This document shows positions 19,876 to 58,708 of a stretch of 64,000 nt of DNA, piece by piece; position 1 is the first letter of the stretch; every line of letters starts with the position of its first letter. Source of the DNA: Cytobacillus sp. NCCP-133. GTDB taxonomy: Bacteria > Bacillota > Bacilli > Bacillales > Cytobacillaceae. The stretch is taken from the NCBI RefSeq assembly GCF_026011715.1, contig NZ_BRVM01000012.1, forward strand, positions 1 through 64,000, read 5' to 3'. Made by a program: the position numbers and the translations under genes. Below the pieces are notes generated by a model, which saw only the letters and a list, made by a program, of their open reading frames with translations, ran no database searches and was not told the origin of the DNA.

Positions 19876-19949
19876 CGACGCCCGAATTACAAGACTTTAC
19901 AGATTTTATTTTTCAGGCTAAGATGAAATCAGCCAACTGAATAGTTTTA

Positions 19950-20047
19950 CTGCTAGGGGTGCCCGTTGCGCGGGCTGAGAAAGAAACCGATCTGTTTTTT
20001 ACCCTTCGGACCTGATCTGGATTATGCCAGCGGAGGAAAGTAGTTAT
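19950..20047 (+). ncRNA. TPP riboswitch (THI element) of thiMDE
   Basis: Shows conserved TPP-box elements in order: AGGGGTGCC, CTGAGA, ACCCTTCGGACCTGATCTGG, and ATTATGCCAGCG with AGGAAAG after it. It precedes an intrinsic terminator (20081-20114), so it should turn off thiamine salvage genes when thiamine pyrophosphate is plentiful. Confidence 0.95.
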
Positions 20048-20080
20048 TAGGGAAAGTATGTTTATTCTCTTATATGATTC

Positions 20081-24777: not shown

Positions 24778-24799
24778 TCTAAGGATAATAATAAAAGGT

Positions 24800-24893
24800 T
24801 TTCTAGGGTTCCGCAGCACTAGCTGGCCTGGTCCGAGAGAAAACTCATAGCTGTGAAGCTATGCCACGGAAGGACAAAAGCCTGGGAGATACT
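24800..24893 (+). ncRNA. Guanidine-I (ykkC) riboswitch
   Basis: Conserved ykkC-class elements in order: CTAGGGTTCCGCAGC, CTGGCCTGGTCCGAGAG, then ACGGAAGGACAAAAGCC and GGGAGA. It is followed by an overlapping terminator and by the two SMR genes, the classic ykkC-ykkCD arrangement. Guanidine should relieve termination. Confidence 0.95.
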
Positions 24894-35129: not shown

Positions 35130-35165
35130 AAATTGTTAGCTAAATAGAAATCCGTGTGAATACGG

Positions 35166-35202
35166 TAGAGGTTCTAGCTACCCTCTTTAAAAAACTAAGG
35201 AA
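35166..35202 (+). ncRNA. PreQ1-I riboswitch
   Basis: AGAGGTTCTAGCTACCCTCT followed by TTAAAAAACTAAGG is the minimal H-type pseudoknot aptamer of the preQ1-I class (P1 AGAGG/CCTCT, A-rich tail ending in CTAA). It precedes queC, as in B. subtilis. Confidence 0.95.
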
Positions 35203-35234
35203 AACAGGTCTGCTTTCTTAGTAGTCCTTTTTTC
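35194..35234 (+). terminator. preQ1 riboswitch terminator
   Basis: ACTAAGGAAA pairs with TTTCTTAGT (one bulge), then TCCTTTTTT. The 5' arm overlaps the aptamer tail. Confidence 0.75.
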
Positions 35235-41890: not shown

Positions 41891-41928
41891 ATATGCAATA
41901 TAAACAAAACCAGAAAGGGGAGGTAATG

Positions 41929-42081
41929 ATGCTCTGGACAATTGCAGGTATACTGCTGGTATTGTGGATACTTGGATTAATATTTGAAGTAGCAGGCGGG
42001 ATTATACATCTGCTGCTCATAATTGCAGCCATCATAATTGTAGTTAACTTTATCAAAGGCCGTGCATCTGGCAGAGGATAG
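41929..42081 (+). CDS. lmo0937-family small membrane protein
   Basis: 50 residues, two hydrophobic helices (LWTIAGILLVLWILGLIFEV; IHLLLIIAAIIIVVNFI). It matches the lmo0937 family, named after a Listeria general-stress protein of unknown function. ATG 41929 lies five bases after GGGGAGG; an upstream ATG at 41893 has no site. A SigB promoter upstream supports stress regulation. Confidence 0.8.
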   Translation: MLWTIAGILLVLWILGLIFEVAGGIIHLLLIIAAIIIVVNFIKGRASGRG

Positions 42082-42083
42082 AG

Positions 42084-42112
42084 AGAAAGCCTTCATTGAA
42101 GGCTTTTTTCTA
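42084..42112 (+). terminator. Terminator after lmo0937-family gene
   Basis: AAAGCCTTC/GAAGGCTTT with T6. Confidence 0.9.
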
Positions 42113-42160: not shown

Positions 42161-42260
42161 AAATACCGGCCAAATTGGCACATTTACCGGCCAATATTAC
42201 ATAAATACCGGCCGAAATCGTGATTTTACCGGCCAAAACTGCCACTTTACCGGCCAACAT
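42161..42260 (+). repeat. 21-bp periodic array, ACCGGCC type
   Basis: ACCGGCC (one copy followed by G, others by A) starts at 42165, 42186, 42207, 42228 and 42249: four steps of exactly 21. The core is usually preceded by T or TTT and the 14-base spacers are unrelated to each other. A further partial CGGCCG lies at 42265. It sits between convergent genes, each with its own terminator. Confidence 0.85.
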
Positions 42261-42305
42261 AGTTCGGCCGTAAGAATCGAAATCTGCATCTCATCCTACT
42301 AACAA

Positions 42306-42338: not shown

Positions 42339-44069
42339 TTACGCAATAACCATGTCAGGATTTAATTCTCCTGCAATTTCCTGTACCTCAGAACCTTCCA
42401 TTGTTTCTTTTTCAAGAAGAGTTTCCACAAGGGTTTGATATTGTGGCTGATGATTTGCAATAAGCAATTCACATCTTTCCAGCGCTTTTTGGAATAAATC
42501 CTGCATTTTGGCTTCTTTTTGTCCTTTATTAAAAGTCAGTTCAAAGCCGTTATCAAGAAGTCCAGTATCGACCATTTGCTCAATAATGTGCTTGGCTTGC
42601 TTCACGTCACCGCTGACACCAATGCTGTGCTCTCCAAGGATCAATCTCTCAGCAACACCGCCTGCTAGTATCATAGCAACCTGATCGAGCAATTCACTAG
42701 TAGTAGACAAGTGAAGTTCCTTATTTATAGGCGCAACATATCCAAGTGCTTCACCACGGGGGATGATCGTAGCCTTTCTCACAGATCCAGGCTTTGTCAA
42801 GGCTGCTACAAGTGCATGACCGGCTTCATGGATGGCTACACGCTGCTTCGTTCCAGGATCCTGAAGGGCACGTGTAGTTGTTCCAAGTATCGTGCGGTCA
42901 AGCGCATAATCCAAATCTTCTTTAGAAATAATCTCCTGGCCATTTCGTACAGCTCTTCGGCTTGCTGTTTCAAACAGGGAATGAAGATCTGCGCCTGAGA
43001 AGCCAGAAGTGCTTTCTGCCAAAACACCAAGAGTCATGAAAACATCCTCAGCTAGCAATCTATTTTTCGTATGGATATGAATAATCTCTCTTCGGCCCTT
43101 TGTATCTGGAAGCGGTACATTGAAAGTGAAGTCGATGCGTCCGGGACGAAGGAAGGCTTCATCCAGCATATCTTTTCGGTTCGTTGCTGCAATAAACAAA
43201 ATGCCATCATTTGAATGTCCGCCATCCAGCTGAACAAGCAATTCTGTCAAAGTTTTTTCACTTTCCTCTCCGCCATGCTGCTTCCGGCGGCCAGCAAGGG
43301 CATCCACTTCATCAATAAAGACGACAGCAGGCGAATGCTTTCTTGCGTTTTGAAAAAGGTTTCTTACACGGGATGCACCAACACCGACAAACAATTCATT
43401 AAAGCCGGATCCGCTGGTTGAGAAAAACGTTGCACCAAGTTCTTTGGCAATAGCCTGGGCAAGAAGCGTTTTTCCTGTTCCAGGAGGTCCGTATAAAAGA
43501 ATTCCTTTCGGCGGTTTTATCCCCATTTTCAGGGAGCGTTCAGGTTCTTTTAAGATAGAAAGAGTCTGCATGATTTCCTCTTTCATTTCTTCCTGAATTC
43601 CGCCAACATCTTCTAGTGAAATGGAAGGAAGAGGCTTAGGCTTGGAAACACTTTGCTTCATTGTATTTGTAGCGCCCATTCCGCCTTTTCCTGCCTTATA
43701 TAGATAGAGCCCAATAGCTATGAATAATAAGACCACCCCAGCAAGAATCCAAGGCGTAAAAGGTCCTGTAGGTGCAAAAGTATACTGTATATTATAGGTT
43801 TCTACTAATTTATCTACTATTTCACTATTAGGAGGCACATGTGAGATGTACTCTCCATCAGGGGCAGAAATTAGCAATTTACCGTTTTTATATTCCTGTA
43901 TTGAAACAGTTTTTCCATCTTGGGAGGCAATAAGCTTTTCCACAGTGGAAAACGAGACAGTCACATCCTTATTTCCTGCTTGCACGGTCCATATAACCGC
44001 TGCCAAAATCACCGTGACCACCAATAAAAGCGAAACAACCGTTGAAGGTTTCTGTAAACGTGATTTCAA
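42339..44069 (-). CDS. FtsH-type membrane AAA+ zinc protease paralogue
   Basis: 576-residue FtsH-like protein. N-terminal helix 12-31, a short outside domain, second helix about 105-125, then AAA+ ([15 protein letters not shown]; Walker A GPPGTGKT; Walker [11 protein letters not shown]; second region [20 protein letters not shown]) and the protease domain with HEAGH. It is shorter than housekeeping FtsH (about 640), lacking the acidic C-terminal tail, and differs in pore loop ([18 protein letters not shown], with GF). Sits alone, away from hprT/tilS, so it is a second, specialised copy. Client unknown. Confidence 0.88.
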
Positions 44070-44556: not shown

Positions 44557-44611
44557 TCCTTTTCATAGACAAAAGTATACTTTATACTTATATCGAATAA
44601 TTTCATAACGC

Positions 44612-44701
44612 TACCACAAGGGGAGCATATTGCTGAGAGTGAACAGTTTTGCTGTTCTGACCCTTTGAACCTGTTAGATAATGCTAGCGCAGGAATGTGG
44701 A
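44612..44701 (+). ncRNA. TPP riboswitch of thiT
   Basis: ACAAGGGGAGC, GCTGAGA, ACCCTTTGAACCTG, TAGATAATGCTAGCG and AGGAATGTGG in canonical THI-box order. About 80 bases before thiT; the sequence between (GGCAGCAGGATGC and GCTTCTGCCTG) can form a hairpin that may act as the switch. Confidence 0.95.
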
Positions 44702-44783
44702 ATAAAAGGCAGCAGGATGCATCCGCTTCTGCCTGCTTGTTCTCCCTTGGGGTATCGTCAAACGATTTAAGGGGGATTTTTTT

Positions 44784-58350: not shown

Positions 58351-58708
58351 GATATCAGAATTTATATCCTTTGAACATAGAAAACTGTCTAGCTTAAGGC
58401 GGCTACCCCCTCGAGGTCATAAGCTTCTCTTGTTGAGACTCCTAGGGACTCGAGGTCATAAGCCGATCCTTCCAGAAGGTAAGAACATCTTCTTACATGG
58501 CTTCTCTTATGCCTGAGGCCCGCAGGACAAGGAAGGCTTCGTCAGCAAATCTTTTGGCACGAAGAAAAAGCGGCAGCTTTTTTTGAAGATAACCATCGCA
58601 CGACCGAAACCGGCAGCTTTTGGGAGGATGCGGGTCATGCAGACGCTGCCACAGAACGTGGCGCTCTTAGTCTGCGTTCCTTCGTGGGCAAGTCGCCTTG
58701 CGCTTTTC
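58351..58708 (+). repeat. Large composite copy of the interspersed repeat
   Basis: Starts with ATATCAGAATTTATATCC, TTTGAACATAGAAAACTGTC and CCCCCTCGAGGTCATAAGC, then CTCCTAGGGACTCGAGGTCA and its neighbours (58439-58465, 27 bases identical to the inverted 8589-8615) and ends with CGCCTTGCGCTTTTCTT. About 360 bases between lipoprotein and hemoglobin genes; longest copy in the window, with no gene in it. Confidence 0.8.

Follow-up and report, generated by a model that had tools for sequence, protein, structure and literature searches.

Head-to-tail arrays of short asymmetric cores at a 21-bp pitch in Cytobacillus and other Bacillus-like bacteria: possible sites of a DNA-binding protein

The array of the window and its counterparts in Cytobacillus

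The stretch of DNA analyzed here, hereafter called the window, comprises 64,000 nucleotides from Cytobacillus sp. NCCP-133 and contains, between the 3′ ends of two convergent genes, five exact plus-strand copies of the heptamer ACCGGCC. The upstream gene (positions 41926 to 42081, plus strand) encodes a membrane protein of the lmo0937 family (DUF5670) with 51 residues, and the downstream gene (42339 to 44069, minus strand) an FtsH-like AAA/M41 protease that scores below the FtsH equivalog cut-off. The copies, hereafter cores 1 to 5, occupy 42165 to 42171, 42186 to 42192, 42207 to 42213, 42228 to 42234 and 42249 to 42255, with four steps of exactly 21 bp. Their span of 42165 to 42255 becomes 42162 to 42258 when the adjacent bases of the head-to-tail units, TTT/AAT-ACCGGCC-(A/G)A, are included. 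A further plus-strand heptamer, TTCGGCC at 42263 to 42269, lies 98 bp from core 1 and may be an outlying variant site, an assignment made with low confidence; the kyn arrays of two other loci (L038 and L074) carry TTCGGCC at +99.

The first-pass annotation of this DNA had reported the five copies, the coordinates of which we reproduced, and had placed them between two convergent terminators. Of these two, that of the FtsH-like gene (42335 to 42307, minus strand) was indeed called by the terminator scan, whereas that of the lmo0937-family gene was recognized by reading the sequence, as a terminator-like hairpin followed by a T run (42086 to 42110, plus strand), and was not called. The stem of the FtsH-like terminator also contains ACCGGCC, a copy that owes its presence to the hairpin rather than to the array. 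Altogether, ACCGGCC occurs 10 times on the two strands of the window, a number reached in none of 100 dinucleotide shuffles (mean 2.79, largest 7). When every 7-mer recurring four or more times at 20–22 bp was sought de novo, the array was the sole one of the window, and base-shuffled DNA (the window plus 20 stretches of 20 kb, five rounds) gave none under the same search. (Elsewhere in the window, Rfam matches lie at 24792–24890, 19945–20055, 44609–44712 and 35162–35204 on the plus strand and at 58610–58686 on the minus strand; they comprise a guanidine-I, two TPP and one PreQ1 riboswitch and one Bacillaceae-1 RNA).

The array is not alone in its species, a point on which the first-pass annotation had made its proposal depend. 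The same genome has 25 pairs of ACCGGCC at 21 bp, distributed over nine loci, and such pairs are present in 19 of the 36 genomes of the genus, this one included, as well as, with one pair each, in 3 of 25 genomes from elsewhere in the family or order. We then compared the window with the eight further loci of its own genome and with 40 loci of five relatives, using a chain finder that allowed steps of 20–22 bp and at most one mismatch per core; locus L060, which has no array under this rule, was left out. The resulting 49 arrays consist of 33 with five cores, seven with four, five with three and four with six. Among their 232 cores 202 are exact and 30 carry one mismatch, and 173 of 178 single steps measure exactly 21 bp. 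One locus (L015) contains two identical units, hence a real tandem duplication. The distribution of the arrays is patchy, even inside genera. (Record NZ_MRTQ01000040.1, our locus L191, has arrays of the Cytobacillus type under the title Paenibacillus sp. FSL R5-0490, which is probably wrong).

Other cores, other lineages and genomic context

Cores different from ACCGGCC, namely ATCGGYC, GCGGAAT, TTTGTAGA and ACTGTCG, are found at a spacing of 20–21 bp in further genera and, with a patchy distribution, in the rest of the order; some of these core families use 20-bp or mixed 21/20/21 steps. Within Cytobacillus, a variant core (mostly ATCGGCC or AACGGCC) lies 60–62 bp before core 1 in 9 of 14 displayed loci, while downstream blocks of ATCGGTC, mostly with 20-bp steps, start at a distance from core 5 of 61 bp in L014 and L045 and of 39–40 bp in L016, L038, L074 and L075. 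To evaluate the pitch itself we scanned 36 stretches of DNA of the family (701 kb), of which 30 had been placed regardless of arrays and six near hbd-like genes (L315–L320). Under a strict setting, requiring at least four 7-mers and divergent spacers, five arrays were obtained at 20–22 bp and none at any other pitch tested between 11 and 64 bp; none of the five came from the hbd-placed stretches. Looser settings, with the window added, gave 8, 8 and 11 chains at 20–22 bp; the 42-bp double then contributed 0, 4 and 8, and each other pitch no more than isolated chains (0–2). The cores that emerged from de novo scans of the family DNA were GCGGAAT, TTTGTAGA and TGGCGGA, and no chains were found in 299 kb from 20 stretches of other families. 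In targeted searches for triples among 25 genomes, GCGGAAT was present in six, ACTGTCG in two and TTTGTAGA in four.

Triples of A[CT]CGG[CT]C cores occur in 40 of 161 genomes of the family, belonging to 6 of 25 genera, and in 10 of 150 genomes across the order. Nine of the latter are outside the family (9 of 145 other-family genomes), so that the ATCGGYC triple indicates a class of arrays not confined to one family, even if one of these nine (G203) has an exact tandem repeat and another (G275) a single match. Differences within a genus can be large, for one genome (G234) has 416 overlapping triple matches and a congener (G192) none; a real tandem duplication is present in G289 at 3.82 Mb. The reversed pattern is not a clean null control, since reversed ACCGGCC reads CCGGCCA and is present in the same arrays. 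Reversed CYGGCYA triples gave 17 matches in G157, six in G255, six in G258 and three in G265, possibly yet another core. Lineage-specific asymmetric cores with a patchy spread within genera could suggest the sites of a patchily inherited enzyme of the defence or restriction-modification type, recognizing an asymmetric sequence of 6–7 bp, the more so as rapidly changing specificity is typical of such enzymes. They need single sites and not phased arrays, as far as is commonly understood, and we consider this explanation very improbable.

The turnover of arrays can be followed in the thiolase-hbd space, which we compared in 13 loci of the genus. At least three ACCGGCC cores are found in five of them (G000, G001, G009, G011 and G012), and the slots without such an array hold decayed remnants (G025, G003, G020 and G034), another core (ATCGGCC/AACGGCC in G004), a different and longer repeat (G006 and G028) or, in G026, a bare space of 54 nt. 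The longer repeat, TAGTTAATC...GAATAACGCC (L225 and L226), has by eye a period of about 63 bp in G006. In another genus, the same space contains five copies of ACTGTCG at exact 21-bp steps (G148). Because relatives lose or replace arrays at the same slot, any single copy looks dispensable.

With respect to neighboring genes, as delineated by mechanical open reading frames, the 49 Cytobacillus rows comprise 17 in tandem sense, 14 in tandem antisense, 15 in convergent and three in divergent context. (The window row was miscounted as tandem antisense in this tally, its 51-residue neighbor falling under the ORF cut-off, and is truly convergent; two of the divergent rows, those of L046 and L057, have orthologs in tandem slots and depend on small ORFs). 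The low number of divergent contexts is given as a description, since many rows are mutually orthologous and were counted without a background expectation. Several of the arrays separate genes of the same direction that probably form operons, such as kynB-kynA and thiolase-hbd. This location is consistent with an element acting at the RNA level, in which the array would be transcribed as a 3′ UTR, an inter-cistronic spacer or a small RNA and its core would be bound by an RNA-binding protein. The orientation in tandem contexts points the same way for GCGGAAT blocks (11 sense, 3 antisense) and TTTGTAGA blocks (16 and 4), but not for ATCGGYC blocks, all from one genome (G118), which are 1 sense and 5 antisense; the ACCGGCC rows have no preference, with the 17 and 14 given above, and a strand bias may simply track the direction of genes or of replication.

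Folding also speaks against a structured RNA. Relative to dinucleotide shuffles, the minus strand of the window array had a z of −3.19 and the two strands of L045 had −3.23 and −2.85, the other seven folds ranging from −1.57 to 0.36. When the cores were kept fixed and the spacers swapped among 16 slots, the effect vanished (mean z 0.12 and −0.19), which identifies the repeated, self-complementary GGCC/CCGG of the core as its source and leaves no covariation of spacers. No Rfam family was found on the arrays of the window and of 20 further loci. A hairpin-like complementarity between spacers 2 and 4 of L045 was considered and set aside, as the spacer swaps gave no general effect. Taken together, we regard action at the RNA level as rather improbable.

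The position of arrays along the chromosome provides a lead. In G001, the contig of which starts at dnaA and measures 4.98 Mb, all 10 array loci found lie within 0.19–1.03 or 4.33–4.87 Mb, compared with nine consensus promoters, of which four fall in the arc of 4.32 Mb through 0 to 1.03 Mb. In G012, which also has dnaA at its start, eight ACCGGCC/ACCGGTC loci among the matches listed are in the arc from 5.14 Mb through 0 to 1.13 Mb, and two listed loci having ATCGGYC only are outside it, at 3.33 and 3.38 Mb. A bias of ACCGGCC arrays toward the origin-proximal third in these two genomes is a lead of this kind, the arc having been picked post hoc and the control being small. Judging from their translations, the contigs of G145, G148 and G118 appear to start in rRNA operons; the contig start of G086 reads N.

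Conservation of cores and drift of spacers

The consensus unit of the 33 five-core arrays, which have an effective number of about 12, is TTT-ACCGGCC-(A/G)A(A); immediately beyond either edge of the array the information drops to background. In 27 ortholog pairs from six slots, the divergence per position of the 21-bp unit is 0–4% in the core and 3% at the preceding T, then 13–16% at the three bases ahead of that T and 16% at the second base after the core; the remaining positions diverge by 26–45%, with no clear three-base rhythm. The conserved footprint measures about 12–13 bp (TTTACCGGCCRAA), about 8–9 bp being free, and this profile across the unit is what the footprint of a protein would look like. 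The earlier assertion that the spacers differ fully needs correction. The flanking T and A residues belong to the longer motif, which leaves the free part just given, and spacers alternate across the family, a feature that the window array alone barely displays (identities of 0.50, 0.29 and 0.57 between neighbors, 0.50 and 0.43 between next-but-one spacers).

Comparison of 55 ortholog pairs of ACCGGCC arrays in 13 groups, counted in both directions, gave differences at 175 of 3535 core positions (5.0%), 1583 of 5637 spacer positions (28.1%) and 11896 of 41666 positions in the 220-bp flanks (28.6%), core conservation being flattered because both members of each pair were chosen for having arrays. 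The same relationship is found for two unrelated cores, namely TTTGTAGA (core 5/136, spacer 45/164 and flank 534/1646, in two pairs) and GCGGAAT (core 4/308, spacer 148/525 and flank 818/3241, in four pairs), so that in the three families together cores diverge by 1–5%, spacers by 27–28% and flanks by 25–32%. Some single pairs run against the trend, such as L044/L054 (core 9/35, spacer 7/51) and L038/L074 (core 2/35, spacer 4/56). As far as sequence comparison can tell, selection on the core, which the first-pass annotation had proposed, is therefore supported, and the spacing it had singled out is conserved while the spacers drift like the flanks. Its further proposal of selection on helical phase fares less clearly. 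The 21-bp pitch is real and common to different cores, and gaps of 1 bp are fewer in arrays than in flanks (2.2 vs. 4.3 per kb; Fisher p = 0.115, for the 38 of 55 pairs retained after those with flank divergence above 0.36 were dropped), which suggests selection on exact length; selection on helical phase itself is plausible, not proven, and the constant spacing may alternatively stem from the common descent of the copies.

The pitch equals seven codons, and one may therefore ask whether the arrays are an ordinary tandem repeat or a short repetitive protein with a 7-residue repeat; in databases they presumably appear as spurious "hypothetical proteins" of this type. Of 31 five-core arrays, frame +1 is open in 21, frame +2 in 19 and frame −1 in 18, compared with 10.8, 9.0 and 11.8 after shuffling of spacers. 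The excess is thus spread over three different frames, with frame 0 open in just two of the 31 arrays, and more likely reflects the placement of A/T tracts; moreover, the lack of a clear codon-position rhythm and the frame-breaking steps of 20 or 22 bp, or of 21/20/21 in many TTTGTAGA blocks (below), lead us to reject a protein-coding repeat. As for tandem duplication, it is real in places such as L015 and the G289 site, and the inner 8 nt of spacers within arrays are somewhat more alike (0.347) than expected from composition (0.276). Neighboring spacers of ACCGGCC arrays are only 0.40 identical, however, whereas, among the matches listed from scans of public genomes and viruses, loci with three ACCGGCC cores show spacer identities of 0.8 or more in 98 of 144 cases (26 between 0.6 and 0.8, 20 below 0.6). 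Six of the 20 listed loci of low identity are of Cytobacillus or Cytobacillus-like origin and have the extended motif (L084, L102, L113, L184, L191 and L192); the other 14 are without the motif extension or, as L155, in DNA of 72% GC with open frames. A minisatellite or VNTR was rejected on the basis of these spacer identities, exceptions such as L015 notwithstanding, and we find the whole explanation by tandem or coding repeats scarcely credible. The view of the first-pass annotation that the array is unlike CRISPR or simple tandem duplication agrees with these values and with the alignment of spacers between orthologs; nor are the spacers simply a single sequence copied and then eroded, even if a faint pattern, both position-specific and alternating, can be discerned in them.

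As to the alternation, identity in 18 ACCGGCC arrays, most of them the sole representative of their slot, is 0.51 between next-but-one spacers and 0.40 between neighbors (p < 0.001). The corresponding values are 0.60 and 0.45 for GCGGAAT (order-permutation p < 0.001), 0.53 and 0.40 for TTTGTAGA (p < 0.001) and 0.66 and 0.58 for ATCGGYC (p = 0.003), with p = 0.064 for the two ACTGTCG arrays, the p values of these non-ACCGGCC sets being optimistic because they mix orthologs and paralogs. The TTTGTAGA family has additional structure: 17 of its 28 blocks have four cores with steps of 21, 20 and 21 bp, 7 of 20 loci have two blocks at a distance of exactly 123 bp, and a GGAA-TTCC palindrome (consensus TTGGAA-n6-TTCCA) directly precedes 24 of the 28 blocks (L256, L335–L353). 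The eight sites of such a double element face one way at a helical turn of 10.26 bp (mean vector 0.99, falling to 0.60 at 10.5 bp), and a ten-site Cytobacillus row with both 61-bp gaps reaches 0.95 at 10.29 bp, while the composite 19-site row of L014 is not in phase throughout (best mean vector 0.62).

The defined shape of TTTGTAGA elements, with their palindrome and 123-bp doubling, lends some weight to the main rival explanation, namely a selfish or mobilized interspersed repeat. Such a repeat would be non-autonomous, with sites recognized by the protein of a mobile element, and its copies would spread and then decay. Spacers at the same position in different slots are more alike (0.515) than those at different positions (0.466; none of 1000 permutations gave as large a difference), which hints at descent from one five-core cassette, and the patchy presence of the ATCGGYC core in several other families, together with the large differences within a genus noted above (416 matches in G234, none in G192), is in line with such spreading. 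On the other side, no conserved ends or flanks extend beyond the array in the 33 Cytobacillus five-core arrays, resident orthologs keep their cores far better than their flanks, unlike a decaying selfish copy, and the window array, used as query, had no BLAST match in plasmid or phage collections. On balance we consider a selfish origin unlikely, if deserving of attention.

Possible function and comparison with known systems

The explanation that we tentatively favor, with a confidence somewhat short of even, is that the arrays are head-to-tail sites, spaced by two helical turns, for a putative sequence-specific DNA-binding protein. The array of the window would then belong to a modular non-coding element present in many copies on the chromosome, each copy consisting of about four to six near-identical asymmetric sites (here TTTACCGGCCRAA) in one orientation and approximately two turns apart. 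The putative protein would load along a single face of the DNA in adjacent protomers, which may act in pairs, as the 42-bp alternation of spacers suggests. The location of arrays, mostly 3′ of genes or between operons and seldom between divergent genes, makes a structural, topological or transcription-end device likelier than a promoter operator. What the sequences show directly is the pitch, the footprint of 12–13 bp, the drift of the spacers, the occurrence with different cores, the alternation and the gene context; the binding of a protein, its action at the level of DNA, the pairing of protomers and the cellular role are inferences. Against such a platform, the orientation of GCGGAAT and TTTGTAGA blocks mostly follows transcription, which a pure DNA platform need not do, and its phasing is at variance with the 20-bp steps of ATCGGTC blocks and with the L014 row, out of phase as a whole.

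A broader version of the proposed protein-binding arrays would be a nucleoprotein system extending over the whole chromosome in Bacillus-like bacteria. Its geometry (asymmetric sites, four to six in number and about two turns apart, with paired alternation every four turns) would be conserved, and the sequence of the site would be rewritten in each lineage together with a fast-evolving DNA-binding partner. We regard this version as possible, with the balance of probability against it. No description of such arrays was found in the open-licence literature with the terms used, and the passages on repeats in PMC5001198 do not treat them; the arrays constitute a widespread family of non-coding elements with a 21-bp pitch in Bacillus-like bacteria, apparently one not described so far. 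If this is true, a well-sequenced group of bacteria contains an abundant class of extragenic elements that so far has no name, and this class would offer natural experiments, in the form of the same geometry with different cores and of array-rich and array-free species in one genus, as well as ready DNA baits for the partner protein. It would also bear on chromosome organization or the insulation of transcription ends and on the genome-wide rewriting of DNA-binding specificity. Should the arrays be selfish instead, they would represent a new architecture of bacterial interspersed repeat.

Several known systems share part of these features. CRISPR arrays have the same look of repeats and spacers, but their repeats exceed about 20 nt and their spacers are unrelated and acquired, whereas the repeats considered here have 7–13 nt at a pitch of 21 bp and their drifting spacers can be aligned between orthologs. 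The clusters of transposase sites at the ends of Tn7 or Mu likewise present several asymmetric sites about 21–22 bp apart in one direction; the arrays differ from them in having no opposite inverted end in the 14 displayed loci and no conserved ends. The iterons of plasmid replication origins clearly resemble the arrays in geometry, as both have about five direct asymmetric repeats some 20–22 bp, or about two helical turns, apart, with a conserved core and on one face of the DNA. Unlike iterons, the arrays are dispersed over the chromosome in many copies, mostly 3′ of genes or between operons, with 12–13 of 21 bp conserved, and the four neighboring proteins examined at the window include no replication initiator. 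REP/BIME, ERIC and BOX elements, as commonly described, share with the arrays the many extragenic copies (here nine loci in one genome and pairs in 19 of 36 genomes of the genus), the location mostly at 3′ ends or within operons, the restriction to lineages and the turnover between relatives. They are, however, palindromic hairpins, whereas the units described here are direct, evenly spaced short cores with drifting spacers, a palindrome being found only beside TTTGTAGA blocks. The likeness to REP elements in dispersal is also clear, but as REP elements are defined by a palindromic unit and iterons by the binding of an initiator encoded nearby, we class the arrays as neither. Finally, the parS, Noc, SlmA and MatP systems, as generally known, correspond to the arrays in having dispersed chromosomal sites for one protein, possibly in an origin-proximal distribution; their sites are single palindromes, whereas those described here form five-fold head-to-tail arrays.
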